Positions 13,749 through 63,734 of a stretch of 64,000 bases of DNA are shown piece after piece. The notes under the pieces are model-generated. The model had not been told where the DNA came from and did not search any database. It worked only from the letters and a program-made list of their open reading frames with translations. The stretch comes from Agrobacterium tumefaciens. GTDB lineage: Bacteria; Pseudomonadota; Alphaproteobacteria; Rhizobiales; Rhizobiaceae. The DNA lies in contig NZ_CP115841.1 of assembly GCF_013318015.2 (NCBI RefSeq), positions 2,101,001 to 2,165,000 of the forward strand, written 5' to 3'. The position numbers and the translations under genes are program-made. The first letter of the stretch is position 1; each line of letters begins with the position of its first letter.

Positions 13749-13763
13749 ACCATCTATTAGTGC

Positions 13764-13789
13764 TGGCCGCAGGTTTTGCCCTGCGGCCA
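13764..13789. terminator. Hairpin between convergent DUF1217 and graK genes
   Basis: TGGCCGCAGG (13764-13773), loop TTTTGC, and CCTGCGGCCA (13780-13789) form a perfect 10-base-pair stem in the 53-base gap between two convergent stops. It probably ends both transcripts, though neither side has a strong T-tract. Confidence 0.6.
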
Positions 13790-13801
13790 ACATCGTCTTA
13801 G

Positions 13802-37482: not shown

Positions 37483-37540
37483 AGCGTACCCGATCTAAAC
37501 AGGATCGATGGGGCGCTTTTACTGCGCCGGGTTCCCGGCG

Positions 37541-38242: not shown

Positions 38243-38359
38243 GGCATGATCCGGAAAACTGGGCGGAGACGGTCATGCCTCGCGGAACGCACCTGTCGCA
38301 TGGTGTTACCGCCATCATTGGCGAGTTTGGTTAATGCCGGGTAAAAAAGGGTCGCGCCA

Positions 38360-39448: not shown

Positions 39449-39460
39449 GGCTCTCTGCCG

Positions 39461-40821: not shown

Positions 40822-40823
40822 GG

Positions 40824-42641: not shown

Positions 42642-42642
42642 C

Positions 42643-43188
42643 TCAATGCTCCTTGGAAAGTTCGATGACGTTGCCACGCGCGCCGGACGAAACCGGTCCG
42701 GACTCGCGATGCCCCGTGAAAATTGCTGTCAGATTTGGAAGAATGACGAACTCGCTGCCGCGTTTGATGAGGCAATGGATGTAATCCGCCCGCCACCGCA
42801 TGCCGACGCTCGGCGGCGGTTCGCTGGCTGCCCGGCTGAACGTGGTCACCTCGTTGACCTTATCGGTCCTGATGCCGATCAATGCCGGCTCGCCATCAAA
42901 CGGCAGTTCTATGACGACGATACGGCTATCAATGGTTCGCTCGGTGGCTTCCATGCCAAAGGCAAGACGGATATCGGCCAGAGGGATGACCTTGCCCCGG
43001 AAGTTGATAACACTCGCCACAAAGGCTTTAGCACCGGGAACGGCGGTTTCGGGCAGAAGATCCAGAATTTCCCGGACCTTCACCGCCTCGATGGCGAAGG
43101 TCTCGCCCGCGATGTTGAAGGTCAGAACTTCCACGGCGTCGGACACGCCCCAAAATTCGTCCGTCTGCTTCAAGAGAGACTGGTTCAT
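42643..43188 (-). CDS. cheW: Chemotaxis adaptor CheW (first copy)
   Basis: 181-residue CheW with an N-terminal extension of about 18 residues. The fold includes [40 protein letters not shown] and [15 protein letters not shown]-terminal tail of about 25 residues after [11 protein letters not shown] is unusual. It overlaps cheA by 4 bases. Confidence 0.94.
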
Positions 43189-45152: not shown

Positions 45153-45520
45153 TTTCCGAGGACCTTTCTGACGATCTTGACCAGATGTTCGGCATCGAAG
45201 GGCTTGGTCAGCCAGCCGGTGGCACCGGCGGCCTTGGCGCGCGCCTTCATGTCCGCATCGGATTCCGTCGTCAAAAAGATGATCGGAATGCCGGTATGAG
45301 CCGGAGATTGCCGAAGCGCCTCAATCATCTCGAGACCATTCATGTTCGGCATGTTGAGATCAGTGACGATGAGGTCGAAATTCGCGGCCTTCGCCTTGGC
45401 AAGACCGTCCTGCCCATCAACGGCCTCGGTAATCTGGTAGCCCGCGCCTGTGAGGGCGATCTTCGTCGTCATGCGAATGCTGGCGGAATCGTCGACCGTT
45501 AAAATATGTGCGCTCATCAT
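45149..45520 (-). CDS. cheY: Chemotaxis response regulator CheY
   Basis: 123-residue single-domain receiver with D10/D11, phospho-acceptor D54 (LIVTDLNMP), IIFLTTES and K in TKPFDAEHL. It has the features of PilH/CheY proteins of alternative chemosensory operons. It overlaps both neighbours by 4 bases. The output may be the flagellar motor or another target. Confidence 0.93.
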   Translation of the reverse strand: MMSAHILTVDDSASIRMTTKIALTGAGYQITEAVDGQDGLAKAKAANFDLIVTDLNMPNMNGLEMIEALRQSPAHTGIPIIFLTTESDADMKARAKAAGATGWLTKPFDAEHLVKIVRKVLGK

Positions 45521-45843
45521 ATGTCCTTTCCATGCAACCAGAACTGGCGGGAGGCTTCATCCATCCGCGACAGGAAACCGCCCCGCCGCAATGTCTGCAA
45601 AACCTGACCGTCAGCCGGCTCTTTCAATGTTATCGTCTTGTTGTTCTGCGCCGCGAAATTGCGCGAGGCTTCCATCAGCTGCACGAAGCTCAAATCCGCA
45701 TCCGCATCCTTGGGCACCTCGACCACCAGCCTGTCGGTGTCTTTGAGACGGTCGAGAAGAAGACCATGTGCCGACGCAATCGACCGTATGGAAAGCGCTT
45801 GCGGCATCTTCAGTGTGTCGTTCGTGGTTTCATCAAAAAACAT
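45517..45843 (-). CDS. STAS-domain protein of the chemosensory operon
   Basis: 108 residues from 45843, where GGGAG lies 7-8 bases upstream; a longer frame to 45882 would overlap the previous gene more. The fold is STAS-like: LSIRSIASAHGLLLDRL, then RLVVEVPKDADADLSFVQLM, then ASRNFAAQNNKTITL. STAS proteins sit at the head of several alternative chemosensory operons; their role is undefined, possibly as an adaptor or phospho-switch. The serine in the DADLSFVQL loop is at the position usually phosphorylated in anti-sigma antagonists. It overlaps the HD-GYP gene by 11 bases. Confidence 0.82.
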   Translation of the reverse strand: MFFDETTNDTLKMPQALSIRSIASAHGLLLDRLKDTDRLVVEVPKDADADLSFVQLMEASRNFAAQNNKTITLKEPADGQVLQTLRRGGFLSRMDEASRQFWLHGKDI

Positions 45844-46969
45844 GGGGAGTCTCCCGAACGGCTGCGGCTTGCATGCCGCCATCCGCCCTGATCGGTTGTT
45901 CTTCCGGTGTTTCGAGGCTCGGCACTTCGATCTCCAGAACGCCGTGGCCCGTCATGAGCCTCTCGATCAGCGTCCATTGGCGCTGGAACGCCGCGACGCA
46001 AGCGGGATCGAAATGGCTGCCGCTCTGCGCGACAACATGCGCATAGGCCTCTTGGGTCGACCACGCCTTCTTGTAAGGGCGCTCGGAGCAGAGAGCCTCA
46101 AAGACGTCCGCAATGGCGACGATACGGGCTTCCAGCGGAATGCCATCGCCCGACAAGCCGTGCGGATATCCCGTTCCATCCCATTTTTCGTGATGGCCAC
46201 CTGCAATCGCCTCGGCTATGCGCAGCAGGTCGGATGAACCGTTTTCGAGAATCTGCACGCCGATACCGACATGTTTTCGCATTTCGGTGATCTCATCAGG
46301 CGTCAGGCGACCCGGCTTCAGCAGCACGCTGTCGGAAATTCCAATCTTGCCGACATCGTGCAAGGGTGCCGCGAGATAGATCATGCGGCAATGCTCGTCA
46401 TCGAGGCCGATATCCTTTGCCATCAGCATGCTGATTTGCGCGACGCGGGAAATATGGTCGCCGGTGTGGCCGTCGCGGAATTCGATGGCCCGCGCCAGGC
46501 GCCAGATGATTTCTTCTTCGCGGGCCGCGAGTTGCCGGGTGGCCTTGCGCACCTCATCCACAAGGCTGCGCGCCTGTCCGGCAAGATCGCGCTGCGCCTT
46601 GCGCAAGGCGAGAAGGTTGCGCACCCGCGCCTTCAGCTCCACCGGGTCAAAGGGCTTGTGGATGAATTCCGTGACACCGCTCTCTATCGCTTCGATAAGG
46701 ACAGGCCGGCCTCTTTCCGATGTGATCATGATGACAGGCACATGCGCGAAATGCTCATACGTATTCAGTGCCTTGAGGAGCTGTATGCCGTTATATTTCG
46801 GCATCGTATAATCCACCACAAGCAGATCGACCGCATTGTTGCGGCAGAATTCCAACGCCTCCGTGGGATCGGTGAAGCCCACGATGGTGCCGACATCCGG
46901 AAGCCCGCGGACCGTCGCTTTCAGGGCAACAAGAATCGACTTGCTGTCATCGACCAATACGATTTGCAC
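45833..46969 (-). CDS. Response regulator with HD-GYP cyclic-di-GMP phosphodiesterase domain
   Basis: 378 residues, first gene of the chemosensory operon. The receiver domain is 1-120, with phospho-acceptor aspartate in LLVVDYTMP and K in HKPFDP. A coiled-coil linker (125-165) precedes an HD-GYP domain with HDVGKIGI and HHEKWDGTGYPHGLSGD, both catalytic motifs intact. It should hydrolyse cyclic-di-GMP in response to phosphorylation, probably by CheA, linking chemosensing to the motile-sessile switch. A CtrA-type site lies about 190 bases upstream. Confidence 0.93.
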   Translation of the reverse strand: MQIVLVDDSKSILVALKATVRGLPDVGTIVGFTDPTEALEFCRNNAVDLLVVDYTMPKYNGIQLLKALNTYEHFAHVPVIMITSERGRPVLIEAIESGVTEFIHKPFDPVELKARVRNLLALRKAQRDLAGQARSLVDEVRKATRQLAAREEEIIWRLARAIEFRDGHTGDHISRVAQISMLMAKDIGLDDEHCRMIYLAAPLHDVGKIGISDSVLLKPGRLTPDEITEMRKHVGIGVQILENGSSDLLRIAEAIAGGHHEKWDGTGYPHGLSGDGIPLEARIVAIADVFEALCSERPYKKAWSTQEAYAHVVAQSGSHFDPACVAAFQRQWTLIERLMTGHGVLEIEVPSLETPEEQPIRADGGMQAAAVRETPHVF

Positions 46970-47396: not shown

Positions 47397-48761
47397 ATGT
47401 CGAAACGGCAGGACAAGATCAAGCTCGGAACCTTTGTTTACACGTTCGGCTTCCATGCAGCCGCATGGCGGCACCCGGCAAGCAAGGTAACGGCAGCAAC
47501 CGACTTCAGCCACATGTTGAATGTGGCCAGAATTTCTGAAGCTGCCAAATTCGATTTCATGTTCCTCGCCGATTCCGCTGCGGCTGCCGTTGGTGACCCC
47601 GACGCCCTGGCGCGCAGCCCGACCAAGCAGAACCGGTTCGAACCGCTTTCTCTCATCTCGGCACTTTCAGTGATGACGGAAAGACTGGGCCTGGTCTCGA
47701 CGGTATCGACGAGCTATTATGAACCCTTCAATGTCGCCCGGATTTTCGCGTCTATCGATCAGCTGAGCCGGGGACGCGCGTGCTGGAATGTCGTCACCTC
47801 CGATCATGACGAGACCGGCTACAACTTCAATCGTCAGGGTCTCGATCCTCACGCCGTCCGTTACGAGCGCGCGCAGGAATTCATCGACGTAGTGTTCGGC
47901 CTATGGGACAGCTTTGAACGCGACGCCTTGCTGCTCGATCGCGAAAGCGGCGTTTATTATGACAAGGCCAAGCACCATACCCTCAATCATGTCGGCAAGC
48001 ATTTTCAGGTGCGCGGCCCCCTCAACATTGCGCCTTCCGAGCAGGGGCGGCCTGTTATTGCTCAGGCCGGCGGCTCCGAGGCCGGAATGAACCTTGCTGC
48101 ACGGACGTCTGAAATCGTCTTCAGCCTGGCATCCAACATCGAGAGCAACAGGGCTTTCTACCAGAACGTCAAAGGACGTATGCCGGCATTCGGTCGCGAT
48201 CCCGAAGATCTCAAGGTCATGCCGGGCATTGTCGTCAATGTCGGGGAGACCGAGGCCGAGGCGAAGGCAAAAGTCGATTTTCTCATCGACAGCCTGCATC
48301 CGGACGTGGGTCGCTTGATGCTTTCGGAGTTCCTCGAAGCCGACCTTCGTGGCGTTCCCCTCGATCAACCATTTCCGATGGACCGGCTGCCCGCCGAGCC
48401 GAAAGGCTCGCGCAAGATGTTTGACCAGCTCGTCGAGTTCGTCAAACAAGGACAGACAGTGGGACAATTGATCCGCCACTACGCAGAACGCCACACCGGA
48501 AACGGAATAACCGGGACACCAAAACAGATCGCAGACTACATGGAAGAGTGGTTCGAAACCCGTGCCGCCGACGGTTTCATTCTTATGTTCCCGACACTTC
48601 CCGCAAGCCTGGAAGATTTCGTCCGCCTTGTCTTGCCGGAGTTGCGGCGACGCGGACTGTTTCGTGAGGAATATGAAGGATCGACGCTGCGCGAGAACCT
48701 GGGGCTTTCGATGCCTGCCAACCGTTACACGGCCGCCAAAGGCGATAAAGAGCGCATCTGA
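47397..48761 (+). CDS. LLM-class flavin-dependent monooxygenase (NtaA/SnaA/DszA family)
   Basis: 454-residue, two-component FMNH2-dependent monooxygenase with the bacterial-luciferase fold. Family segments visible are KIKLGTFVYTFGFHAAAWRHP, MFLADS, LGLVSTVSTSYYEPFNVAR, SRGRACWNVVTSDHD, PVIAQAGGSEAGMNLAA and GTPKQIADYMEEWFETRAADGF. Relatives open nitrilotriacetate, EDTA, dibenzothiophene sulfone or alkyl sulfides. The flavin reductase 11 bases downstream supplies FMNH2. The substrate is unknown; the context suggests an amino-acid-like or methoxylated compound. Confidence 0.92.
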   Translation: MSKRQDKIKLGTFVYTFGFHAAAWRHPASKVTAATDFSHMLNVARISEAAKFDFMFLADSAAAAVGDPDALARSPTKQNRFEPLSLISALSVMTERLGLVSTVSTSYYEPFNVARIFASIDQLSRGRACWNVVTSDHDETGYNFNRQGLDPHAVRYERAQEFIDVVFGLWDSFERDALLLDRESGVYYDKAKHHTLNHVGKHFQVRGPLNIAPSEQGRPVIAQAGGSEAGMNLAARTSEIVFSLASNIESNRAFYQNVKGRMPAFGRDPEDLKVMPGIVVNVGETEAEAKAKVDFLIDSLHPDVGRLMLSEFLEADLRGVPLDQPFPMDRLPAEPKGSRKMFDQLVEFVKQGQTVGQLIRHYAERHTGNGITGTPKQIADYMEEWFETRAADGFILMFPTLPASLEDFVRLVLPELRRRGLFREEYEGSTLRENLGLSMPANRYTAAKGDKERI

Positions 48762-48772
48762 AGGAGCCAATC

Positions 48773-49288
48773 ATGGTGGACCAGATGAAAATGCAGGTGC
48801 CGTCTCCGGGCGCTGACCTCTTCAAATCCTCCATGCGGAATCTGGCGGGTGCCGTTTGCGTCATCACGACAGGCACGGGTGAAACACGAACCGGCTTCAC
48901 CGCAACATCCGTCACAGCACTTTCTGCGGATGGCCCGACGGTGATGGTCGCACTCAATCGTGGATCCTCGTCCTGGGAAATCGTCGAGAAAGCCAGACGG
49001 TTTTGCGTCAACGTCGTCGCTGAAGGTCAGGAAAACGTCGCCCACTCATTCTCGGGTTTTAATGGCCTTAAGGGTGCCAGCCGCTACGATGGCGCCGTCT
49101 GGCACACGATGGCGTCAGGCGGCCTTGCGCTGGATGGCGCTCTGGCAAGTCTGGACTGCGAACTCGAAGACGCGATCATCCATCGATCTCATGTGATCCT
49201 GATCGGCCTCGTCCGGTCGATAAGGACACATGACGATGCCCGGCCACTTCTGTACTGGCGCGGAGAATATCAACACATCAGAAGGTGA
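48773..49288 (+). CDS. NADH:flavin reductase, partner of the LLM monooxygenase
   Basis: 171 residues of the NtaB/HpaC flavin reductase family: FKSSMRNLAGAVCVITTG, GFTATSVTALSADGPTVMV, NVVAEGQENVAHSFSG and LLYWRGEYQ at the end. It lies 11 bases after the monooxygenase with GGAG upstream. It produces reduced FMN for that enzyme. It is convergent with the lysR gene, 23 bases away. Confidence 0.92.
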   Translation: MVDQMKMQVPSPGADLFKSSMRNLAGAVCVITTGTGETRTGFTATSVTALSADGPTVMVALNRGSSSWEIVEKARRFCVNVVAEGQENVAHSFSGFNGLKGASRYDGAVWHTMASGGLALDGALASLDCELEDAIIHRSHVILIGLVRSIRTHDDARPLLYWRGEYQHIRR

Positions 49289-49311: not shown

Positions 49312-50238
49312 TCACGCACTGCGGTTCGGGGACGATGCGACAGACTGCTTTTTCGCGATCCCCATCACCCACATGTGAAATTCTCTTCCGTAGGGCTTAT
49401 CGAAAACGGAACGATCCCATGCCAGATAGTAGCTCTCGGGAAGCGGAAGGCGGATGTCGAAAGGAACAACAAGTGTACCGGCCTGCAACTCGTCCTCGAT
49501 CATCGAGACCTGAGCCAGCACGAAGCCGTGTCCGTTGACCGCAGCGTCGATTGCGTTGCTCGACAGCGCGAAAAACAGGCTCGAGAGTTTTTCATTCACG
49601 GTCGCGCCAACCAGCTGCGCCCACTCGCTCCATTGTGGCGGACGGCTGTAATGGGCTTCCCACTCGATATTGAGCAAAGGGAATTTGAGAAGGTCGGCGG
49701 GCGCCGATAATGTCCGTCCCCCGAGCAAACGCGGCGAACATGCGGGAACCACCCAATCCGTATAAAGCGGCACGAAATGCGCGTGCACCTCTGCCCGCTT
49801 TCCATAGGTTATGCGAAAATCGCTCTGGCCGCCCGACAGGCTGGGTTCGTCATCCTTGCCGATGATACGGACATTGGCTTCCGGATAGAGAGCCTGCCAC
49901 TCGAAGATCTTGCGGCCGATCCACTTGTTCACCACCGAGCTGAGCGCAGTCAGCACGATGCCGGTCTGGCTCCGCGCCCGTTCGAGAACATCGACGGAAT
50001 GATTGAGCTGGCTGAAGCCTTTGGCGACTTCCTTGTGAAGAAGAACACCCCACGACGTCAGTTCCACACGGCGTCCGATACGTTCGAGGAGCGTAACGCC
50101 GAGATGGTTCTCAAGCTTGCGCACCTGTTGGCTGATGGCACTGGGTGTTACGCCCAGTTCTTTGGCGGCCGTGCTCATCGTGCCGCACCTTCCTACGGCT
50201 TCGAAAGCTTGCAGGGCATGGAGTGGGGGCATAGCCAA
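49312..50238 (-). CDS. LysR-family transcriptional regulator
   Basis: 308 residues (306 if the third-codon ATG is used). The N-terminal winged helix-turn-helix is at about 5-65 (FEAVGRCGTMSTAAKELG then VTPSAISQQVRKLENHLG), and the GcvA-like effector domain covers 90-300. It is divergent from the Rieske oxygenase gene with a dyad in the 123-base gap. By position it should activate the monooxygenase, Rieske and reductase operons, which all have the dyad upstream. The inducer is unknown. Confidence 0.93.
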   Translation of the reverse strand: MAMPPLHALQAFEAVGRCGTMSTAAKELGVTPSAISQQVRKLENHLGVTLLERIGRRVELTSWGVLLHKEVAKGFSQLNHSVDVLERARSQTGIVLTALSSVVNKWIGRKIFEWQALYPEANVRIIGKDDEPSLSGGQSDFRITYGKRAEVHAHFVPLYTDWVVPACSPRLLGGRTLSAPADLLKFPLLNIEWEAHYSRPPQWSEWAQLVGATVNEKLSSLFFALSSNAIDAAVNGHGFVLAQVSMIEDELQAGTLVVPFDIRLPLPESYYLAWDRSVFDKPYGREFHMWVMGIAKKQSVASSPNRSA

Positions 50239-50263
50239 TAGAGTATCTCCAGTTCTGCTTTTT

Positions 50264-50280
50264 GTTAAGTTTTTCTAAAC
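50264..50280. promoter_or_regulatory. LysR-type dyad between lysR and the Rieske oxygenase gene
   Basis: GTTAAG-TTTTT-CTAAAC (one mismatch from a perfect palindrome) begins 25 bases upstream of the lysR start and ends 81 bases before the Rieske ATG, a classical LysR autoregulatory position. The 18 bases 50271-50288 recur exactly, in inverted orientation, at 59995-60012. Confidence 0.65.
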
Positions 50281-50361
50281 AAAAACGCAACGAAAATCCG
50301 CTTGTTCCGCATCGCAACAAGGAAAATACTGATCCGATTAAAGCGAGAACGGGGGAAGAAA

Positions 50362-51402
50362 ATGTTTCTCAAGAATGCTTGGTACGTCGCCACCTGGGAT
50401 CACGAAATCGGACGAGACCTGACACCCGTAACGATGCTCGGCGAAAATATCGTTCTTTATCGTCTTCAGAATGGCAAGCTTGCAGCGCTCGAAGATGCCT
50501 GTCCCCATCGCAAGCTCCCCTTGTCCATGGGGCGTATCAAGGGCGACGACGTCGAATGCGGCTATCACGGACTGACCTTCGACTGTTCCGGCGCCTGCAC
50601 CCGCGTGCCGGGTGCAGAGCGTATTCCACATGTGGCCTGCGTCCGCTCCTACCCGGTGGAGGAACGTTACGGGCTCGTCTGGGTCTGGATGGGTGAGGCC
50701 GCGAAAGCCGATCCTGCAGAGATTTTCCATGTCGAACATTTCGGTGATCCGTCCTGGGGCGTCAATCGCGGCGAGTCGATGACGATCAACTGCAATTACC
50801 TCTACATGACGGACAATCTGCTGGACCCATCCCACGTCGCATGGGTACATCAGAGCTCGTTCGCCAGTTCCGCCTGCGAAGAAACGCCATTGGAAACAAC
50901 GGTGAAAAGCGATGGCGTCGTCGTCTGGCGCTGGATGCTGGATTCAGATCCAGCCCCCTTCTACGCACCGTTCCTGCAATTTGAGGGGAAATGCGATCGA
51001 AAACAGCATTACGAGGTTCGCTACCCCAGCAATGCCATCATCAAGGCCATCTTTGCACCATCAGGCTCCGGCGGCGAAGGCCGCGAATTGCCAGCCAATA
51101 CGTTCTTGATGGACAGCTACAATTTCATGACGCCAGTCGATGAGAACCGCACGAAGTATTACTGGTTTCAGATGCGAAATTTCGCGCCCGACGACCCGGA
51201 AGTTTCAGCGCGCTTCGCAACATCCGTACGCGGCGCATTCGAGGAAGACCGTGTCGTGCTGGAGGCGGTCCACCACGGGATCGCGAACAAGAAGACTCCA
51301 AACCTCGATCTGAAGATCGATGTCGGACCGCTGCGGTTCAGACGCAAGCTTTCACAGATGATCGATAGCGAGACCATGAATGTCGTCGCTGCCGCGGAGT
51401 AA
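50362..51402 (+). CDS. Rieske-type aromatic oxygenase, VanA-like
   Basis: 346-residue terminal oxygenase. The Rieske [2Fe-2S] ligands are C47, H49, C66 and H69 (CPHRK and CGYHG). The mononuclear iron site includes D155-x2-H158-x4-H163 (LLDPSHVAWVH). The N-terminus FLKNAWYVATWDHEI is typical of O-demethylases such as vanillate or dicamba demethylase, though related enzymes act on N-methyl or ring carbons. Its electron donor is probably the VanB-like reductase at 58633-59742, encoded 7 kb away under the same dyad. The start at 50362 has GGGGGAAG upstream. Confidence 0.93.
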   Translation: MFLKNAWYVATWDHEIGRDLTPVTMLGENIVLYRLQNGKLAALEDACPHRKLPLSMGRIKGDDVECGYHGLTFDCSGACTRVPGAERIPHVACVRSYPVEERYGLVWVWMGEAAKADPAEIFHVEHFGDPSWGVNRGESMTINCNYLYMTDNLLDPSHVAWVHQSSFASSACEETPLETTVKSDGVVVWRWMLDSDPAPFYAPFLQFEGKCDRKQHYEVRYPSNAIIKAIFAPSGSGGEGRELPANTFLMDSYNFMTPVDENRTKYYWFQMRNFAPDDPEVSARFATSVRGAFEEDRVVLEAVHHGIANKKTPNLDLKIDVGPLRFRRKLSQMIDSETMNVVAAAE

Positions 51403-51537
51403 GCGCCTGCGCCGGAATGACTAACGATATGGTCTTCGCCTGCTCAAATGGTCAGGCGGAGATGGCAAAAAAATAATAACCGGGAACATAGCTGGTGATC
51501 GGCAAAAGCCGACGCCCGCCACAAATCGGGAGTATCC

Positions 51538-53502
51538 TTGATGCGCCACATCAGGCAGCCTGAGCTCTATTCAGTGGACTATAATGTGCTGCGGCAACGT
51601 TTTCTTTCCGCCGCGCGCCGGTCGAATGCTGCGTTGTTCGAATATAAGCATCCATTGCATGGCCCAGGTGGAGAGCACCTTTTCACGGATGTTGCATATC
51701 TGGGCGAACGCAACGCGTCAAAAAAACTCGTCATCTTGTCCGGCACGCACGGAGTTGAGGGGCAATTCGGATCGGCTTGCCAGGCTGAATGGCTTGCCGC
51801 AAATAACCCGTTACCGCTTCCTCCCGATACGGCTGTGGTGATGATCCATCTGATCAACCCGTGGGGAACAGCATGGAGCCGACGGGTCAACGAGGACAAT
51901 GTCGATCTCAACCGAAACTTCGTTGACTGGAAGAGAGCCGTTCCACGAAACGAACGATACGCCCCACTGCACAATGCATTTGTCTGCGCCGAGTGGGATG
52001 GACCCGATCGTGACCGTGCCGATCAACTGCTGAGAGATGCCAAGGCCGCATTAAACGGTCACGCCGGTATCGCCGCGATTATCGAAGCAGGCCAATACGA
52101 CTTTCCAGACGGACTGTTTTATGGCGGCAACGGCCCGACATGGTCGAACCGCACCCTCAACGATATCTTGAGCACTTTCGTCAGCGGCGCGTCGGATGTC
52201 GTCGTCTTCGATCTTCACACCGGTGCAGGCCCTTACGGATATCCCGCGCTGCTATCCGTGGCGGAAGAGGACCATGCCGGTCTGGAATGGGGCAGAAAAA
52301 CCTATGGCCACGCACTCGCGGTCGTGATGACCGGCAAGGGCGCAACGACCGATACCGGCATTGCGGCAACGGCCACGGGCTACGTTTCAGCAGCGGTCTG
52401 CAAATCCTTGCCGGACAGCCGCGTATTGCCGCTGGTAATCGAATGCGGAACCCTTGAAGGCCCGGTGGTGATGGACGCCGTGCAGGCGGATAACTGGCTG
52501 CATCTTTTCGGGAATATCGAATCTCCGCTTGGGCAGAAAATCAAGAAGACGCTGAGAACTGCGTTCATTCCTGACGATCCCGAATGGCAGCAGAACTGTC
52601 TTGGGACAAGCTTGCGATATTTCGACCGCGCGCTGACCGCACTTGCCTCGGTTACTCCCCCGGCTTCAAAGGGCGCAACCGCTCCGGCTTTGGTGAGCGA
52701 CTGGCCACCGGCCGTGCCTGTCAACACCAAACGCCATGAACGGCCAGCCGTTGAAGTTCATGATCTCCACAAAAGCTTCGGCACGCACGAAGTCCTGTCG
52801 GGCGTGGGGCTGAGTGCCGATCCCGGTGAAGTCGTTTCGATGATCGGCTCGTCAGGTTCCGGCAAGAGCACGTTTTTGCGCTGTATAAACCTGCTCGAAC
52901 AGCCCAGCAGTGGAACGATCGTCGTTGATGGCGAGGAAATACGAATGAAGGGCGGAGCGAATGGCCGTTCGCAGCCAGCAGACATGCGCCAGGTCGAAAG
53001 AATTCGCGCCCGCGTGGGAATGGTATTCCAGAACTTCAATCTCTGGCCCCACATGTCCGTGCTTGAGAACATCATCGAGGCTCCCGTCCATGTTCTTGGC
53101 GAGCGTCGCCAGGATGCAATCGACCATGCCCATCAGTTGTTGAAGAAAGTGGGACTGTCGGAAAAGCATGCCCAATATCCCGGGCAGCTCTCCGGCGGCC
53201 AGCAGCAACGTGCGGCCATCGCAAGAACACTGGCCATGCGGCCAAAAGTCATCCTCTGTGACGAACCGACATCCGCTCTCGACCCCGAACTTGTGGGAGA
53301 GGTCCTGCGCGTGATCCGTCAGCTGGCAGAAGAGGGCAATACCATGATCCTCGTGACGCATGAAATGCAGTTTGCGCGCGAGGTATCTCACAAGATTCTC
53401 TTCTTACACAAAGGAAAGGTGGAGGAAGAGAGTACCCCGGCGGAATTGTTCACCAATCCGCGATCGGAACGCCTGCGTCAGTTTCTGTCGCGAACGTTAT
53501 GA
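51538..53502 (+). CDS. Fusion of a DUF2817/M14-like metallopeptidase with an amino-acid ABC transporter ATPase
   Basis: 654 residues in one uninterrupted frame. Residues 1-365 are a DUF2817 carboxypeptidase-like (M14/aspartoacylase fold) domain with zinc ligands H71, E74 (GTHGVEGQ) and H227 (FDLHTGAG), the N125-R126 pair in DLNRNF and probable catalytic E302 (VIECGTLEG). A linker of about 35 residues rich in Ala, Pro and Val leads to a HisP/GlnQ-like ATPase (403-654) with Walker A GSSGSGKST (437-445), Q-loop FQNFNLWPHM, signature LSGGQQQR (551-558), Walker B VILCDEPTSALD and H608. It is followed by the matching binding protein and two permeases. The fusion would tether hydrolysis of an amide or peptide bond to the cytoplasmic side of the importer. 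I know of no described case. Confidence 0.93.
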   Translation: MMRHIRQPELYSVDYNVLRQRFLSAARRSNAALFEYKHPLHGPGGEHLFTDVAYLGERNASKKLVILSGTHGVEGQFGSACQAEWLAANNPLPLPPDTAVVMIHLINPWGTAWSRRVNEDNVDLNRNFVDWKRAVPRNERYAPLHNAFVCAEWDGPDRDRADQLLRDAKAALNGHAGIAAIIEAGQYDFPDGLFYGGNGPTWSNRTLNDILSTFVSGASDVVVFDLHTGAGPYGYPALLSVAEEDHAGLEWGRKTYGHALAVVMTGKGATTDTGIAATATGYVSAAVCKSLPDSRVLPLVIECGTLEGPVVMDAVQADNWLHLFGNIESPLGQKIKKTLRTAFIPDDPEWQQNCLGTSLRYFDRALTALASVTPPASKGATAPALVSDWPPAVPVNTKRHERPAVEVHDLHKSFGTHEVLSGVGLSADPGEVVSMIGSSGSGKSTFLRCINLLEQPSSGTIVVDGEEIRMKGGANGRSQPADMRQVERIRARVGMVFQNFNLWPHMSVLENIIEAPVHVLGERRQDAIDHAHQLLKKVGLSEKHAQYPGQLSGGQQQRAAIARTLAMRPKVILCDEPTSALDPELVGEVLRVIRQLAEEGNTMILVTHEMQFAREVSHKILFLHKGKVEEESTPAELFTNPRSERLRQFLSRTL

Positions 53503-53573
53503 CGTGATCCGCTGTGCCGGCGCTGTGTCCGGCAAATCAAACCCAACAAATAACCAAATAGGGGAATTCGCAT

Positions 53574-54368
53574 ATGAATCTGAAAGTCCTGTCACTCGCC
53601 CTGCTTCTTGCAGGCGTCAGCACGGCGCACGCTGCCGAAGGCGAATTGTCGATCGGCACCGAAGGTGCCTATCCACCATGGAGCATGGCCGATGCTGCCG
53701 GCAATGTAACCGGCTTCGACGCCGATGTCGGCAACCTGCTCTGCACGAAGCTCGCCGTGAAGTGCCGGTTCGTCGTGCAGGCCTTTGATGGCCTGATCCC
53801 TGCCCTCAAGGCGAAGCGCTTCGACGTCATCATCTCCGGGATGTCGATTACCCAGGATCGAAAAAAGGAAATCAATTTTTCGGTCGGATATGCTGAGCTG
53901 GCAAACATGTTCCTCGTTCCCAAGACGTCCGATCTCTCCGGCATCAAGGATATCGACACTTTGTTGAAAGGCTTGGACGGCAAGACGATCGGCGTTCAAA
54001 CCGGCACGACGCACGCCCATTTCATCGAAAAGCGGGTGCCGAATGCCAATCTCAAAACCTACGACACGCTCGATAATATGCAGATCGATCTCGCAAGCGG
54101 CCGCGTTGAGGCAGCATTTGCAGACGCCTCTGCACTTCAGGATTTTCTCGCCAAGCCCGAAGGCAAGGACTTTCAGTTTGTCGACGTGAAAGTTCAGAGC
54201 AAATTCGATTCCACCCTCGGCGAAGGGATCGGCGTCGGAATTGCCAAGGAGAACACCGAACTGAAGACGAAGATCGACAAGGCACTGTGCGAGCTCGTCG
54301 CGGATGGTTCGATCGGCAAAGCGAGCCAGAAGTGGTTCAAGATGGATATCTCCAGACCCTGCAACTAA
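53574..54368 (+). CDS. Polar amino acid/opine-type ABC transporter binding protein
   Basis: 264 residues with signal peptide MNLKVLSLALLLAGVSTAHA. The mature part has SBP_bac_3 features: LSIGTEGAYPPWSM, GFDADVGNLLC, FDGLIPALKAKRFDVIISGM split by a turn, SITQDRKKEINFS, GVQTGTTHAHF and GEGIGVGIAKENTEL. The EGAYPPW start is shared with lysine/arginine/ornithine, octopine and nopaline binders. Two internal cysteines near residues 57 and 64 and a late C-terminal one are present. AGGGG precedes the ATG. It is the second gene of the transporter operon. Confidence 0.92.
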   Translation: MNLKVLSLALLLAGVSTAHAAEGELSIGTEGAYPPWSMADAAGNVTGFDADVGNLLCTKLAVKCRFVVQAFDGLIPALKAKRFDVIISGMSITQDRKKEINFSVGYAELANMFLVPKTSDLSGIKDIDTLLKGLDGKTIGVQTGTTHAHFIEKRVPNANLKTYDTLDNMQIDLASGRVEAAFADASALQDFLAKPEGKDFQFVDVKVQSKFDSTLGEGIGVGIAKENTELKTKIDKALCELVADGSIGKASQKWFKMDISRPCN

Positions 54369-54505
54369 GACGCCTGCCCCGCTCTTCCCAGAAGTGCGGG
54401 GCAACCACTCAATCGCAACCTGACAGGGTGCGCACGGTCGAAGACGCTGACGATGCCTGCTGCCAAAAAGGCAAGGGAGTGCGCAGCAAAACCAAGGCAA
54501 ATCCA

Positions 54506-55213
54506 ATGGAGTCTAGTCTGATCCTAGTTTGGCAGGGTGGTTGGATAAGAGCCATTCTGCAGGGGGCCGCAATAACGATTGCCGTCGGTACGGTCAGCAT
54601 GCTTGTCGGTGCGTTGATCGGAACCTTGTGCGGGGTCATCAAGTGGGCGCGGATATTCCCGCTGACACTTGTGGTAGACGCCTATACCTCTCTCGTGCGG
54701 GGGGTGCCGGAACTGCTTATCATCTATCTGCTGTTCTTTTCTTCCGTGCAATTCGTGACACAGGTTGCCACAGCTTTCGGATATGCTGCCCTTGCGGACA
54801 GCGGATATGCCTTCATCATTGCCATCATTGCCATCGGTACGATTTCAGGCGCCTACTCGACCGAGGTTATCAGGGGAGCATTGGCTTCCATTCCGACGGG
54901 ACACATCGAAGCTGCGCGTGCACTGGGGATTCCCGGGCGCCGCATCTTCAGGCGCATCATCATCCCGCAAATGCTACGCATTGCCATCCCCGGCATGAAC
55001 AATGTCTGGCAGACAACCATCAAGGACACGGCACTGGTATCGGTTGTCGGGCTGCAGGAACTGATGCGCGCCGCCTCGGTTGGCGCCGGTAGCACCCGCA
55101 ATCCCCTGATTTTCTTTCTTATCGCAGCCGTCGTGTATTTCGCGATCACCATCATAAGCCAGGCTGGATTCGACAGGGTCGAACGCCTGGTGAGACTAAG
55201 GGCGAGGAAGTAA
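54506..55213 (+). CDS. Amino acid ABC transporter permease (HisQ/OccQ type)
   Basis: 235 residues from an ATG at 54506, with five hydrophobic segments. The conserved permease stretch reads YTSLVRGVPELLIIYLLFF, and the coupling loop is GALASIPTGHIEAARALG. The longer frame upstream of 54506 lies in the spacer and is not protein-like. It ends 4 bases before the second permease start. Confidence 0.92.
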   Translation: MESSLILVWQGGWIRAILQGAAITIAVGTVSMLVGALIGTLCGVIKWARIFPLTLVVDAYTSLVRGVPELLIIYLLFFSSVQFVTQVATAFGYAALADSGYAFIIAIIAIGTISGAYSTEVIRGALASIPTGHIEAARALGIPGRRIFRRIIIPQMLRIAIPGMNNVWQTTIKDTALVSVVGLQELMRAASVGAGSTRNPLIFFLIAAVVYFAITIISQAGFDRVERLVRLRARK

Positions 55214-55217
55214 CGCG

Positions 55218-55904
55218 ATGGATATCGAATTCCTGAAAACATCGATGCCTTTCCTCTTGAAAGGACTTTCCACAACGGCGACCATAACCGCGATATCTGT
55301 CGCGATCGGTTTCAATCTCGGCCTTGGTCTTGCGCTCATGCGGCTGTCCGAAAACCGCTTCCTTGCCGGGTTTGCAAAATATTACAGCATGGTCTTTCGC
55401 GGTACACCGCTGCTTGTACAACTGTTCCTGTTTTACTACGGGCTTGGCCAAATTGGATTTATCAAAGGCAATGCCATAACGTGGTGGGTGATTAGTGATG
55501 GTGCGCGCTGCGCGGTCATGGCGATGGCGCTCAACACAGCCGCCTATACATCGGAGATTCTGCGAGGCGGATTATTATCGGTTCCCGCGGGTCTCAAGGA
55601 AGCGGCCAAAGCCACGGGAATGTCACCATTTATGCGTTTCCGCCGGATCGAATTCCCGCTCGCCATTCGCCAGGCTCTGCCGGCTTACGGCAATGAGCTG
55701 ATCCTCGTCGTCAAGGGTACGAGCCTTGCCTCGACAATCACGGTTCTCGAGATCACGGGATATGCAAAGCGCCTGATGAGCCAGACATTCGCGATTTTCG
55801 AGGTTTTCGCTCTGGCCGGTGCCATCTACCTCGTCATCAACCTCACCCTCGTCATGCTCATCCGCATGCTTGAGGCACATCTGATGCGTCACGAAGCGCG
55901 CTGA
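55218..55904 (+). CDS. Amino acid ABC transporter permease (HisM/OccM type)
   Basis: 228 residues with five hydrophobic segments, the YSMVFRGTPLLVQLFLFYYG motif and coupling loop GGLLSVPAGLKEAAKATG. It pairs with the preceding permease to form the channel energised by the peptidase-ATPase fusion protein. A GC-rich hairpin follows. Confidence 0.92.
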   Translation: MDIEFLKTSMPFLLKGLSTTATITAISVAIGFNLGLGLALMRLSENRFLAGFAKYYSMVFRGTPLLVQLFLFYYGLGQIGFIKGNAITWWVISDGARCAVMAMALNTAAYTSEILRGGLLSVPAGLKEAAKATGMSPFMRFRRIEFPLAIRQALPAYGNELILVVKGTSLASTITVLEITGYAKRLMSQTFAIFEVFALAGAIYLVINLTLVMLIRMLEAHLMRHEAR

Positions 55905-56018
55905 AGGCCATTAGACTCGAACCTTACGACTGCCTGTCACGCGCATTTATGGACTATATCGCCGCCTGGACAGCCAAAAAAATGGCGTTCTGAAACGTAG
56001 TCGCCTATATCGTGTCCG

Positions 56019-56043
56019 CGCCGCGCGCCTAGAGAGCGCGGCG
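56019..56043. terminator. Hairpin between the convergent transporter and FAD dehydrogenase operons
   Basis: CGCCGCGC (56019-56026) and GCGCGGCG (56036-56043) form an 8-base-pair stem with a 9-base loop, then TTGT. It lies between two convergent stops, so it probably ends both transcripts. Confidence 0.6.
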
Positions 56044-56051
56044 TTGTCATG

Positions 56052-57473
56052 TCAGCCGGTGACTTTGCCGGGGTTAAGAGTGTATCCGCCATCGATTGCG
56101 GCCTTGATCTGCGTCATCAGGGCAAATTTTACCGGGTTCGCTGTCTCCCGCAACGCATGAATGCGTTTGGAGCCGATCCCATGTTCCGCCGAGAACGAAC
56201 CACCCGATTGCGTCAGGTCGCGGTAGAGAACGGATTCGATGGCAGCAATCTTGGCGGGCGTCAGAGCTGTCCCGGCTGCATTGAGAACAATGTGAAGATT
56301 GCCATCGGCAATGTGGCCGAAGAGGTAGGGATCGAGGAGAGGATCGATTGACCGAAGCTCCGGTACGCAGCGAGCCACATATTCTCCGATCTGCGACAAG
56401 GGGACGGAGACATCAAAGGACGGCGCAGCCGGATATCTGCGATAGATAAGGTCCGTGTCCTCCCTCAGACGCCACAACTCTGCTTCCTGCGCCTTCGATG
56501 TTGCGACGACAGCGGACACGTTCGGATAGGTTTCATACAGCTCCTCGTAAATCCGGCCGAGCTCCATCTGAAGCTGTTCCTCGTCACCGCCGGCCAGAGA
56601 CACGATGAGGTTGACGGGATAGTCAGGGGCATAATCTGGCGCCGACCAAAGGTGCTCGCCCGCCGTCAGGGAGAAAAACGAATTCCAGATCGCTTCCGCC
56701 GCACGCATGTGGCCATACCTCACGGTCAACCCCAGCCTGGTCGCCTCAAGAGCCGCTTCAACGGAGGGAAGCCCAAAAAGTGCGGTTGCGGTTGCTGCGG
56801 GAACCGGCTCCAGCTTGATGGCAACCCTGGTCACAATACCAAGCGTACCCTCGGCCCCGATGAAGAGATGCTTGAGATCGTATCCTGCGGCGTTCTTCAC
56901 CACGCGTGTCAGGTCGGAATATATCGAGCCATCAGGCAATACGACTTCCAGCCCGAGCACGCGATGTCGCATCACCCCATATCGAAAGGCAGAAATCCCG
57001 CCGGCATTGGTCGAGACCATTCCGCCAATCGTGGCAGAACCACGCGATGGCAAGTCGATGCCTGGCTCGAGACAATGCTCCGATGCGGCCGCCTGCAACG
57101 CTTGAAGCGTAACGCCCGCCTCCACAACGGCAACCCGCTCATCTGGATAGATTTCCACGATCCGGTTCAGCCGGGCGGTCGACACCACGATTTGACCGGG
57201 GACGGACACACCCCCGCCAACAAGCCCGGTTCGGCCACCCTGTGGTACAACCGATATACCATGGGCAACCGCAGTTTTTATGATCGACGCAACCTCGTGC
57301 GGAGATGAAGGGAAAGCAACCGCATCCGCACCGAAATTCGCAGGCGTTACGCCATAATCGAGATTGGCAACGGCATCACCGCGTTTCAGGTTCGACAGGC
57401 CGATAATCTGGTCGATTTCATTAAGAAACGCGGCGGACAAATCCCGTGTTAAGGCGGTATTGTGTTCGATCAT
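56052..57473 (-). CDS. FAD-linked D-2-hydroxyacid dehydrogenase, GlcD/D2HGDH family
   Basis: 473 residues. The FAD_binding_4 domain (about 40-220) has VVPQGGRTGLVGGGVSV and PSRGSATIGGMVSTNAGGI split by a turn. The C-terminal FAD-oxidase domain closes with SAEHGIGSKR. Relatives oxidise D-lactate, glycolate or D-2-hydroxyglutarate, passing electrons to quinone or a flavoprotein. Last gene of a three-gene operon, overlapping the aminotransferase by 4 bases. A 2-hydroxyacid made from an amino acid could be its substrate here. Confidence 0.92.
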   Translation of the reverse strand: MIEHNTALTRDLSAAFLNEIDQIIGLSNLKRGDAVANLDYGVTPANFGADAVAFPSSPHEVASIIKTAVAHGISVVPQGGRTGLVGGGVSVPGQIVVSTARLNRIVEIYPDERVAVVEAGVTLQALQAAASEHCLEPGIDLPSRGSATIGGMVSTNAGGISAFRYGVMRHRVLGLEVVLPDGSIYSDLTRVVKNAAGYDLKHLFIGAEGTLGIVTRVAIKLEPVPAATATALFGLPSVEAALEATRLGLTVRYGHMRAAEAIWNSFFSLTAGEHLWSAPDYAPDYPVNLIVSLAGGDEEQLQMELGRIYEELYETYPNVSAVVATSKAQEAELWRLREDTDLIYRRYPAAPSFDVSVPLSQIGEYVARCVPELRSIDPLLDPYLFGHIADGNLHIVLNAAGTALTPAKIAAIESVLYRDLTQSGGSFSAEHGIGSKRIHALRETANPVKFALMTQIKAAIDGGYTLNPGKVTG

Positions 57474-58591
57474 GACGCGACTTTTGCCTCACGAAGCTTA
57501 TCTTTGAGTGAGCGTAACGCTTCGAGAAAACGGTCGTTTTCCGCAGGAAGCCCGACGGTCACACGAATGAAGCTGGCGAACTCCGGTTCTTTCCAGGGTT
57601 TGACGATGACGCCATGGGACAGGAAATGATCGAAAGCGATCGAACTGTCGCAACCAACATCGATGAAGAGAAAATTCGTCTCAGAGTCCGGAACGAAAAG
57701 ATCAAGCGAGGCGATTGCCGCAGCCATGCGCCTGCGCTCCTTGACGACGCTTTCGACGGAAACCCGCATCCAGTTTTCGTCATCGAGCGCGGCAACTGCG
57801 GCCAATTGCGCGGCCGCATTGACGTTGAACGGTGTCTTTGCAGATGACATGGCCTGTGCCAGCCGCTCATCGGAAGCCACGGCATATCCGACGCGCAACC
57901 CAGCCAGCCCATAGGCCTTCGAGAAGGTTCTGAGCACGACCCAGGAGATAGCGCTGTCAGCCAGTGTCTTAAGCCCATCTGGCGTATTCCCGTCGCAGAA
58001 TTCGAAATATGCTTCGTCGAAAACAAGCAACGTCTCTTTCGGGACAGCTGCAATGAGGCTTGAGAGCTGATCCTGTCGCAACGCCGGGCCCACGGGATTG
58101 GAAGGCGAGGAGATGAAGAATATCGATGGCTTTTCGCGCAATGCGGTCGTCATCGCCTCAAGATCGAACCGAAGATCCTTCGTCATCGGTATCTTGATGA
58201 TTTTCGCACCATTTGCTCTAGGCTCGATTTCGTGAAGGCCGAAACCAGGTATCATCGCGACCACGGTAGCATCCGGACGCAGGACCGCGCGACAAACGGC
58301 AGCGATCATCTCTTCGGAGCCGTTTCCAATGACAATCCGGTTTCCGGCAACGCCGAGCTTTCGACTAAGCGCATCACGCAAGATCACACAGGCAGGATCC
58401 GCATAGCGTGAAGGGTCGAGACTGGCCAGCGCAGCGGTTACCTTCGGAGAGCAACCATATGGATTCTCATTGCTGGCAAGGGCCGCAATATCGGTCAAAC
58501 CCGTCTTGCTTCGCGCAACGGCGATATTCATTCCAGCATTATAAGGCGGGAGTTCAGCAACGTGCGGGTTGAGTCTGAGTGTATCGGCCAT
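57470..58591 (-). CDS. PLP-dependent aminotransferase, HisC-like (fold type I)
   Basis: 373 residues from 58591; a longer frame to 58672 would run into the reductase gene. Class I/II aminotransferase features are LASNENPYGCSPKV, NGSEEMIAAVCRAVL, SPSNPVGP, DEAYFEFCDG and the PLP lysine in RTFSKAYGLAGLRVGYA. It resembles histidinol-phosphate aminotransferase, but a catabolic cluster with no other his gene argues for turning an imported amino acid or amine into a keto acid. Confidence 0.9.
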   Translation of the reverse strand: MADTLRLNPHVAELPPYNAGMNIAVARSKTGLTDIAALASNENPYGCSPKVTAALASLDPSRYADPACVILRDALSRKLGVAGNRIVIGNGSEEMIAAVCRAVLRPDATVVAMIPGFGLHEIEPRANGAKIIKIPMTKDLRFDLEAMTTALREKPSIFFISSPSNPVGPALRQDQLSSLIAAVPKETLLVFDEAYFEFCDGNTPDGLKTLADSAISWVVLRTFSKAYGLAGLRVGYAVASDERLAQAMSSAKTPFNVNAAAQLAAVAALDDENWMRVSVESVVKERRRMAAAIASLDLFVPDSETNFLFIDVGCDSSIAFDHFLSHGVIVKPWKEPEFASFIRVTVGLPAENDRFLEALRSLKDKLREAKVAS

Positions 58592-58632
58592 GGGTTGATC
58601 TCGCTGATTTGGATAAACGCTGGAATCTGGTT

Positions 58633-59742
58633 TCAGAGGTCGAGTACGACTGAACTCACGGGCTTGGAACAACAGAGGAGAATCTGCCCGGACGGCACGT
58701 CATCCAGCGGCTCTTCCACATATTCAACGTCGCCGGACACAAGGTTTTGGACACAGCTGCCGCAGACACCCGCGCGACAGGAGAATGCTGGCTCAATACC
58801 CCGGCTCTCCAGAAAGCTCAGGATGGATTCCGAGGCTGAATCCCACTCGAATCTGGCATTTGACTTTCCAAGAACGATCTCGATGCCGGAGTACTCAGGC
58901 TCTGACGCCACCGGAGCAACAGTGAGGCTGAGGTTTGCTTCCTTCTTCGGCTGCGATGGCGAAAGCAGGGAGGCAGGCCCGAAAAACTCGTAGGCAATCT
59001 TGCTTTTCTCCAAGCCGAGGGAGAGGAGCAGGTCATACATCGCCTGCATGAACGGCGGTGGTCCGCACATATAGACTTCGTAATCGTCCAGCGGCAGAAA
59101 CGACTGCAAGGTCTCCCGCGTGATGAAACCGGCGGAATGGAACAGCCCGGCTTTAGCATCCTCGTCGGTCGGAAAACGATAACAGTAATGAATATGGACG
59201 TTGCTGCGCTGTTCAGCGAGCACCCGTACTTCTTCACGCAGCGCATGGGTAGCAGCCCCGTCGCAGGCATGGACGAACCAGACGGGCCGATCGCTTTCCG
59301 CAACCAAGACCTTCAACATGGATATCGTAGGTGTCAGCCCGACGCCACCGGACAAGAGAATAACCGGTCGCTGACTGGCCTTGTCGAGTTTGAAGGCACC
59401 ACGCGGCCTGTCAATATGGATGACCGCACCCTCTTCTACGGCGTCATGGAGCCAGCACGAAACAAGACCATCGGCCATATCGGGCGCTAAAGCGGCCTCC
59501 CGTTTCACGGTAATACGATAGACTCCGATCTCATTTGGTCCTGACGAAACCGTGTAATTCCGGACAAGCGGTTCTTTGCCTTCGGGATGCGGTATCTGGA
59601 TCGTCAGAAACTGGCCCGCCTCAAAAGTACACCAATCCGCAGGATCGACAGGCGTGAGGTAAAATGACGTGATCGTGGCACTCTCGCGCACCTTGCGCTT
59701 TACCTCGAACGGGCGAAAACGTGGATCCAGGCGGGTCGTCAT
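58633..59742 (-). CDS. Ferredoxin-NAD(P)H reductase with C-terminal 2Fe-2S domain, electron donor of the Rieske oxygenase
   Basis: 369 residues. The FAD-binding beta-barrel (1-110) has RNYTVSSGP; the NAD(P) domain (115-265) has LLSGGVGLTPTISML and YMCGPPPFM; the plant-type [2Fe-2S] ferredoxin domain (about 285-369) has CRAGVCGSC and a last cysteine in LLCC. It is longer than VanB (about 320) and resembles HCR/GbcB-type reductases. The split Rieske system (oxygenase at 50362) is connected by the shared LysR-type dyad. Confidence 0.92.
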   Translation of the reverse strand: MTTRLDPRFRPFEVKRKVRESATITSFYLTPVDPADWCTFEAGQFLTIQIPHPEGKEPLVRNYTVSSGPNEIGVYRITVKREAALAPDMADGLVSCWLHDAVEEGAVIHIDRPRGAFKLDKASQRPVILLSGGVGLTPTISMLKVLVAESDRPVWFVHACDGAATHALREEVRVLAEQRSNVHIHYCYRFPTDEDAKAGLFHSAGFITRETLQSFLPLDDYEVYMCGPPPFMQAMYDLLLSLGLEKSKIAYEFFGPASLLSPSQPKKEANLSLTVAPVASEPEYSGIEIVLGKSNARFEWDSASESILSFLESRGIEPAFSCRAGVCGSCVQNLVSGDVEYVEEPLDDVPSGQILLCCSKPVSSVVLDL

Positions 59743-60302
<560 letters not shown>

Positions 60303-60304
60303 TT

Positions 60305-60366
60305 ACCAGCGTAAATCCCTATGGGATTTATCGCGACCAGCGTAAATCCGTATTGGATTTATCGCG
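60305..60366 (-). repeat. Two tandem 31-base repeats next to tRNA-fMet
   Basis: 60305-60335 and 60336-60366 are identical at 29 of 31 positions. Each contains a palindrome AAATCC-N5-GGATTT, and the two differences keep or change only the loop-side pair, so each unit can fold as a small hairpin. They lie directly upstream of the tRNA in its transcription direction. They may be processing signals or a duplicated spacer. Confidence 0.8.
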
Positions 60367-60480
60367 ACTGCATCACAGGGAAGCTGTGATGTATATTGCC
60401 GGAGCAAATTGCCGAAGGCGATTTGTCTCCTTTAAGGGACGCACGAGGCGTTTTCCTTATGTTTTCATGTTCCGTAATGC

Positions 60481-60502
60481 AAAAAGGCCGCTTTGAGCGG
60501 CC
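60481..60502 (-). terminator. Rho-independent terminator between 5S rRNA and tRNA-fMet
   Basis: GGCCGCT (60486-60492) and AGCGGCC (60496-60502) form a 7-base-pair stem with a 3-base loop. Read on the minus strand, the stem is followed by TTTTT (60485-60481). It lies 57 bases after the end of 5S. Confidence 0.75.
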
Positions 60503-60558
60503 CTTTGTATCGGCTGGGCCGAAGAGTTTGCTTGAGAAGATATTTGTTGCGTTTTGCA

Positions 60559-60676
60559 GACCTGGCAGCGACCTACTCTCCCGCGTCTTGAGACGGAGTA
60601 CCATTGGCGCTGGGGCGTTTCACGGCCGTGTTCGGAATGGGAACGGGTGCAGCCGCCCCGCGATAACCACCAGGTC
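60559..60676 (-). rRNA. rrf: 5S ribosomal RNA
   Basis: About 118 bases. The ends GACCTGG and CCAGGTC pair, and the interior has the conserved CCGTTCCCATTCCGAACACGG stretch (given in two parts: CCGTTCCCATTC, CGAACACGG) and CAATGGTACT. Exact ends may differ by one or two bases. Confidence 0.95.
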
Positions 60677-60921
60677 GGCAAAACGCAACACAGTTCATGT
60701 TTTCACATGAGTGTTGTTTCGAGAAGCTGGGAAGCTTGCGCTTCATTTAATTTAACACGTCTTTCTGCGACCCTTCCCGTATGTTTGCCATACAGACCAG
60801 AGGTCGTCGCGCCTTCCGGTTTTTGCTTTCAAGCAAAATACCTGTGGCGCGGCCCGTCCGGAGCGCTATGCGCGTCAGGACAGAACAGATGATGCTCATC
60901 TTTGATGAGCATGAACAATGG

Positions 60922-63734
<2,813 letters not shown>

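Follow-up and report, generated by a model that had tools for sequence, protein, structure and literature searches.

The window analysed here, a stretch of 64,000 nucleotides from Agrobacterium tumefaciens, encodes a single protein in which a DUF2817 zinc hydrolase is joined to a HisP-like ABC ATPase, and sequence comparison confirms that this joining of hydrolase and motor is real and conserved across many soil and root bacteria. We think it probable that the protein is both the ATPase subunit of a polar-amino-acid ABC importer and the hydrolytic enzyme of a small catabolic module, the genes of which surround it (Table 1). The comparison covers 70 loci: 36 with the fusion, two from Pseudomonas, one from Paraburkholderia, three from Pantoea, one from Shinella that has only DUF2817, and 27 distant loci with a stand-alone DUF2817, hand-picked from search matches. 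The fused loci include repeat records (L109/L105, L111/L017 and L112/L014), and 33 remain without them. Module genes in the fused loci were counted at a threshold of 100 bits, and these counts are lower bounds, as contig ends cut some of the stretches.

Table 1. The fusion, the importer and the module genes around it (window positions; counts are fused loci with a match)
Feature	Position	Strand	Remarks
LysR-type regulator, divergent from module	49315..50238	-	Pfam HTH_1 + LysR_substrate; 34/36
Rieske oxygenase alpha subunit, VanA/DdmC-like	50302..51402	+	likely start ATG 50362; Pfam Rieske + VanA_C; 34/36
Two-domain protein, DUF2817 hydrolase + HisP-like ATPase	51541..53502	+	653 aa; TTG alternative start 51538
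DUF2817 / M14-type zinc hydrolase domain	51568..52602	+	residues 10-354; H70, E73, N124, R125, H226, E301
Linker	52603..52746	+	residues 355-402
HisP-like ABC ATPase domain	52747..53499	+	residues 403-653
Family-3 substrate-binding protein (SBP), NocT/LAO-like	53574..54368	+	profile and structure matches
Permease 1	54506..55213	+	likely ATG 54506; ORF open from 54287; 36/36
Permease 2	55218..55904	+	36/36
FAD-linked oxidase, D-2-hydroxyglutarate/D-lactate dehydrogenase type	56052..57473	-	26/36
HisC-like aminotransferase	57470..58672	-	likely start ATG 58591; 29/36
VanB-like reductase for Rieske oxygenase	58633..59742	-	FAD, NAD, 2Fe-2S domains; 32/36

Frame, layout and junction

The first-pass annotation had read hydrolase and ATPase as one continuous frame, and this is confirmed: the frame runs from TTG 51538 or ATG 51541 to the stop at 53502 with no internal stop. 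Residues are counted here from the ATG, and the earlier numbers, counted from the TTG, are one higher. It had also allowed for a sequencing error at 52700–52760. Separate genes do occur in Pseudomonas, as would suit a sequencing or assembly artefact that joined two genes; however, the domain junction is in frame in all 36 fused loci, a conspecific assembly agrees with the window's fusion at 99%, and both domains are present in all of the best 120 relatives, so that such an error is excluded and an artefact refuted. One fused locus, L107 (Rhizobium beringeri), keeps the junction in frame but has a frame shift farther upstream that breaks the DUF2817 half; in this strain (TP37), the LysR, DUF2817, permease 1 and HisC matches between positions 5773 and 15018 of the locus each fall in two pieces. 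The L107 assembly may be rich in errors; in another record of R. beringeri (H3) the fusion is unbroken.

When codons of the window and of eight loci were compared, dN/dS was 0.04–0.12 for the DUF2817 half and 0.02–0.07 for the ATPase half, with dS near saturation in five of the eight comparisons; for the linker, values of 0.14–0.40 could be computed in five of the eight. Among the relatives the linker has a mean identity of 36% and a length of 36–66 aa. In the structural model a helix extends up to residue 370, residues 376–386 and 390–398 are of low confidence (pLDDT <50), and the full-length model (pTM 0.61) leaves the relative placement of the domains undefined. Such weak conservation suits a loose tether and is by itself no argument for tight channelling. 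Membership of this protein family, with no signal sequence present, suggests that the hydrolase would be tethered on the cytoplasmic side.

A separate internal start for the ATPase half was considered and rejected: every one of the 37 sequences has start-type codons in the stretch 90 to 11 codons before Walker A, and a 4-base ribosome-site match precedes one of these codons in only four (L013, L014, L112 and L118), at unlike places. A scan of 50100–56100 for promoters and terminators gave nothing beyond what shuffled sequences give.

Hydrolase, ATPase and importer

The N-terminal half matches DUF2817 (PF10994) at residues 10–354 over positions 1–339 of the 341-position profile, with 322.6 bits against a gathering score of 23 (E 5e-96). 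Zinc-site and catalytic residues previously listed as H71, E74, H227 and E302 (here H70, E73, H226 and E301) are indeed intact and near-invariant in relatives. Among 120 full-length fused relatives and the window, H70 is found in 121/121, H226 in 120/121 and E73 in 119/121; E301 reaches a conservation of at least 90% in alignment A1 (65 rows), and H70, E73, N124, R125, H226 and E301 are invariant in 54 DUF2817 sequences that include distant ones. In M14 enzymes the HxxE motif and a further His form the zinc site, Asn-Arg clamps the carboxylate and Glu is catalytic. The domain has this residue set, and its structural model shows the M14 metallocarboxypeptidase fold. Its HGxE and DLNRNF motifs align with those of MpaA in a weak match (E 0.004), and no sequence relative in the PDB scored below E 0.17. 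The window's protein falls short of the gathering score of the AstE/AspA deacylase family PF24827 (22.7 bits vs 25), and some close relatives of the fusion are annotated with that family. Because the 50 Foldseek matches listed for the full-length model were all ABC ATPases, the DUF2817 domain was modelled alone. CphZ is among its Foldseek neighbours; superpositions over the 50 matches listed are poor (rmsd 6–19 Å), and the M14 fold claim does not rest on them. We know of no substrate for DUF2817. By name, the family turned up in a single, unrelated paper among the 5.39 million open-access PMC papers searched.

Regulatory domains on importer ATPases are known, as in MetN, whose C-terminal domain regulates its ATPase. 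With this precedent, and with DUF2817 covalently attached to an importer ATPase, there is a slight chance that the domain is a sensor or brake that binds cytoplasmic cargo and regulates the ATPase, catalysis being secondary; against this, fused and unfused forms both keep the catalytic and zinc residues with little or no variation, and unfused forms sit in modules that have no adjacent HisP-type ATPase.

The C-terminal half had been called a complete HisP-like ATPase, and it holds up as one. ABC_tran (PF00005) covers residues 420–578 (E 1.5e-35); Walker A, Q-loop, LSGGQ, Walker B and H-loop are all present, and K442 of Walker A, LSGGQ, D574-E575 of Walker B and H607 of the H-loop are each found in 121/121 of the fused relatives and window. 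Its closest match is HisP (PDB 1b0u), though it reaches 355.9 bits against the cut-off of 466 of the HisP equivalog NF007908, and by sequence we class it as HisP-like, not as HisP.

The operon does supply a binding protein and two permeases (53574–55904), as had been noted, and these adjoin the fusion in 36/36 fused loci. The permeases score 45.7 and 81 bits against the TIGR01726 cut-off of 42.2, as in polar amino acid (HEQRo) importers, and the SBP scores 127.8 bits against 26.4 for SBP_bac_3. The arrangement supports the view that the fused ATPase belongs to the adjacent importer. The sole other close HisP-like ATPase near fused loci (65% identity) belongs to a second, complete transporter in L010; distant ABC ATPases (22–37% identity) occur in 10 of the 36 stretches. 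Alternatively, the ATPase might power the enzyme and not transport, as PhnK does on C-P lyase, complexes of which (7z15–7z19) are among the Foldseek ATPase matches listed; we consider this very improbable, since the ATPase domain is far closer to HisP/ArtP and the SBP and both permeases are constant neighbours.

The closest solved structure to the SBP is NocT, followed by LAO and HisJ. We aligned 19 positions, mostly the ligand positions in Table 3 of PMC5740067, and 18 of them are identical in the window and the 36 other module copies; the invariant residues include E11, Y14, F52, S69, G70, S72, R77, Q117, T120, T121, H122 and D161, with either T or A at position 118. According to the same paper, Ser72 and Asp161 of LAO hold the alpha-amino group, and the carboxyl group is bound alike by LAO and OccJ. 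From the pocket we infer that the cargo has its alpha-amino and carboxyl groups free and bears a side chain that is polar or cationic. Opine signatures, given there as Gly97-Met117-His170-Ser207 for NocT and Ser91-Asn111-Thr163-Ala164-Asn202 for OccJ, are incomplete in the window's SBP, which has S, T, H and D at the four LAO positions compared, 72, 121, 122 and 161, and so matches one of three compared NocT residues (His) and two of four OccJ residues (Ser, Thr). An opine as cargo is thus disfavoured, and only disfavoured, because OccJ tolerates Asp at the place of Asn202: its N202D variant is reported still to bind octopine (PMC5740067).

Probable catabolic module, distribution and unfused relatives

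The first-pass annotation had recognised the importer genes of the operon and overlooked the Rieske oxygenase, its reductase, the HisC-like aminotransferase, the FAD dehydrogenase and the formaldehyde genes. The Rieske protein has both the Rieske and VanA_C domains that mark the demethylases, and its best PDB matches are 7qwt and dicamba O-demethylase DdmC (3gb4); no Rieske gene was detected in two of the 36 fused loci (L096 and L113). The aminotransferase is closest to HisC and a putative phenylalanine aminotransferase, and the FAD enzyme to a putative oxidoreductase (3pm9) and D-2-hydroxyglutarate dehydrogenase. S-(hydroxymethyl)glutathione dehydrogenase (FDH) was found in 9/36 fused loci, Gfa in 8/36 and either in 10/36; neither was detected in the other 26, including the window's conspecific, some stretches being cut by contig ends, and neither has a match in the window itself. 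Without repeats (n=33) the counts are LysR 31, Rieske 31, reductase 29, HisC 26, FAD enzyme 25, FDH 8 and Gfa 7.

DNA similarity to L156 and L157 spans 49339–60022 and 49346–60022 of the window, and the FDH-GFA pair that these two loci have between permease 2 and the FAD enzyme is absent from the window at 55904–55919. An LLM (NtaA/DmoA-family FMN) monooxygenase and a flavin reductase at 47397–49288 fall outside the DNA that the window shares with L156 and L157; we rejected them as module members, as they were matched at 100 bits in only one of 36 loci, the conspecific. Farther left lie chemotaxis-type genes (CheB, CheA, methyl-accepting proteins) and an HD-domain response regulator (35737–46969). 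On the other side, genes for tRNA-Met, 5S and 23S rRNA (60226–63730, minus strand) adjoin the module, and the shared DNA stops near 60022.

The two-domain architecture, proposed earlier as something to search for, is present elsewhere in the family: DUF2817 occurs in 15 of 297 genomes sampled from it, 13 of which hold it in one open frame of at least 667 aa, and the fusion was seen in the neighbourhoods of all 12 of these other than the window. Only 6 of 39 genomes of the window's genus carry the whole fusion, so its distribution is patchy; together with the rRNA genes at the module's end, this suggests insertion next to an rRNA operon. With the whole protein as query, both Pfam domains were found in all of the best 120 relatives (with Rhizobium, Agrobacterium, Mesorhizobium, Ensifer, Shinella, Ochrobactrum and Paracoccus among the named sources), under database names such as 'DUF2817 domain-containing protein' and 'polar amino acid transport system ATP-binding protein'. 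When only the DUF2817 half was searched, 117 of the best 120 had both domains, the exceptions being P0121, P0125 and P0126.

A DUF2817 tree (86 rows, quick method, SH-aLRT support) sets 58 module-linked rows apart from 28 distant rows (support 99). All 48 fused rows (the window, the 36 loci with L107 as two rows, and 10 proteins) fall in a 52-row clade (support 98), whose other members are the Shinella protein L101, P0121, P0125 and P0126. The start of the ATPase is still visible in P0126, from a contig of 1.6 kb, so this protein is probably truncated and not a real exception; the L101 protein ends within the linker. Proteins of Pseudomonas, Paraburkholderia and Pantoea lie outside this clade. 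The tree is consistent with one fusion followed by two or three later separations.

In plasmids of Pseudomonas fragi and P. bubulae (L098, L099) the module functions are separate adjacent genes (identities: DUF2817 46%, Rieske 62–63%, reductase 45%); type IV secretion genes adjoin this unfused module. On Shinella p3 (L101) the module keeps DUF2817, and no HisP-type ATPase, SBP or permease match was found in the 13 kb covered; the hydrolase can thus be of use where this importer is missing. Beside DUF2817 in the stretches covered from Paraburkholderia and Pantoea there are likewise no such permeases or ATPase; the Pantoea megaplasmids (L102, L103, L104) have an amino-acid SBP, DUF2817, a 2OG-Fe(II) oxygenase (HalD-like in L102, the one scanned with Pfam) and a LysR gene. 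SBPs of Pseudomonas, Paraburkholderia and Pantoea are of another type, 52–58% identical to one another across genera and 30–36% to three fused-type SBPs, so DUF2817 seems to have become associated with uptake on more than one occasion.

The 27 distant DUF2817 loci gave no match at 100 bits for the SBP, permeases, Rieske oxygenase, reductase, HisC, FDH or GFA; LysR was matched in one and the FAD enzyme in four. With the threshold lowered to 60 bits, one of these loci (L123, positions 11453–14291, from the window's family) has an amino-acid-type SBP (26%), permeases (33–35%) and an ATPase (46%) nearby, on the opposite strand from its DUF2817 and without the rest of the module. Vicinity to an amino-acid-type transporter is therefore not unique to the module, and L123 is perhaps a further independent pairing.

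These arrangements bear on the main rival to our reading, in which the fusion does no more than keep enzyme and transporter co-expressed at a set ratio, the hydrolase being an ordinary cytosolic enzyme that acts, perhaps, further along the path on a product of the Rieske oxygenase or the aminotransferase and not on the cargo during entry. The long, variable and weakly conserved linker, the unfused versions that retain related neighbours and the stretch around L101 with its lack of an importer would all fit; on the other hand, the 52-row clade keeps the fusion with few departures, and lineages whose SBPs are of different types all pair DUF2817 with an amino-acid SBP, in keeping with action on the cargo. 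We judge this rival rather unlikely.

Proposed function and known systems

Our preferred reading, that importer motor and module enzyme are one protein, would work as follows. HisP is established to act as a dimer, as ATPases of its type do, so that a complete importer would have a pair of M14-type zinc hydrolase domains, flexibly tethered in the cytoplasm. The SBP would hand over a free alpha-amino acid whose polar or cationic side chain is modified, the importer would carry it inside, and DUF2817 would cut an amide or isopeptide bond in it; the Rieske oxygenase and its reductase would take off a methyl group as formaldehyde, the HisC-like enzyme would transaminate the amino acid, and the FAD enzyme would handle a D-2-hydroxy acid. 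Cargo class, amide hydrolysis, demethylation and transamination are what we infer, and the order of steps is a proposal; oxidative demethylation is suggested by the class of the oxygenase and by formaldehyde genes, which a minority of loci have. The module probably breaks down a methylated amino-acid compound. Methylhistidine or anserine, prompted by HisC and a meat isolate of Pseudomonas, was set aside as having no direct evidence; a literature search gave nothing related to it. Methylarginines, methylated diamino acids and cyanophycin-type beta-Asp-Arg dipeptides are guesses, CphZ being the Foldseek neighbour noted above. Still more tentatively, hydrolysis might be coupled to import, the two tethered domains catching the derivative as it leaves the permease, cleaving it and feeding the Rieske demethylase. 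If true, cargo would be cleaved before it could act on the cell or leak out, an import-side counterpart of the peptidase-containing exporters. The first-pass idea that a tethered deacylase or peptidase would hydrolyse the substrate on entry and so keep up the gradient is likewise speculative.

Textbook ABC importers pass intact cargo to free cytosolic enzymes; here many rhizobia retain a catabolic-looking hydrolase as an integral part of the importer's motor subunit. The fusion is thus a simple test case for physical coupling of uptake to the first metabolic step, and the module offers a setting for finding the function of part of DUF2817 and points to a probably methylated amino-acid compound used by root bacteria. 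The earlier statement that no characterised system resembles it stands as far as searches of open-access PMC papers go, which found no report of a zinc hydrolase on an importer ATPase; the architecture itself is common in databases. The novelty lies in the combination, as each half is ordinary.

PCATs, which are exporters with a C39 cysteine peptidase domain, likewise have a hydrolase covalently joined to an ABC transporter. They run in the opposite direction with unrelated domains, whereas the fusion has a zinc hydrolase on an importer's ATPase subunit; Pfam found neither a C39 peptidase nor an exporter membrane domain in it. HisP/ArtP importers (HisQMP-HisJ; PDB 1b0u, 2olj) share the ATPase domain, permease pair and family-3 SBP, to which the fusion, below the NCBI HisP cut-off, adds an N-terminal hydrolase and linker of about 400 residues. 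M14 carboxypeptidases A/B/T, AstE/AspA-type deacylases, MpaA (5hxd), 3fmc and CphZ (8ein) have the fold and HxxE-NR-H-E residues in common with DUF2817, which is a separate Pfam family and is here joined to an ATPase. In NocT/OccJ opine uptake of Agrobacterium, the NocT pocket Glu, Gln and His are common to the window's SBP; the latter has the LAO-like Ser72 and Asp161 (LAO numbers) where NocT has Gly and Ser (PMC5740067). Finally, the DdmC, VanAB and NdmA demethylase modules share the VanA_C/Rieske oxygenase and VanB-like reductase, with formaldehyde genes in some loci, but here these are paired with a hydrolase-importer fusion, an aminotransferase and a D-2-hydroxyacid dehydrogenase.
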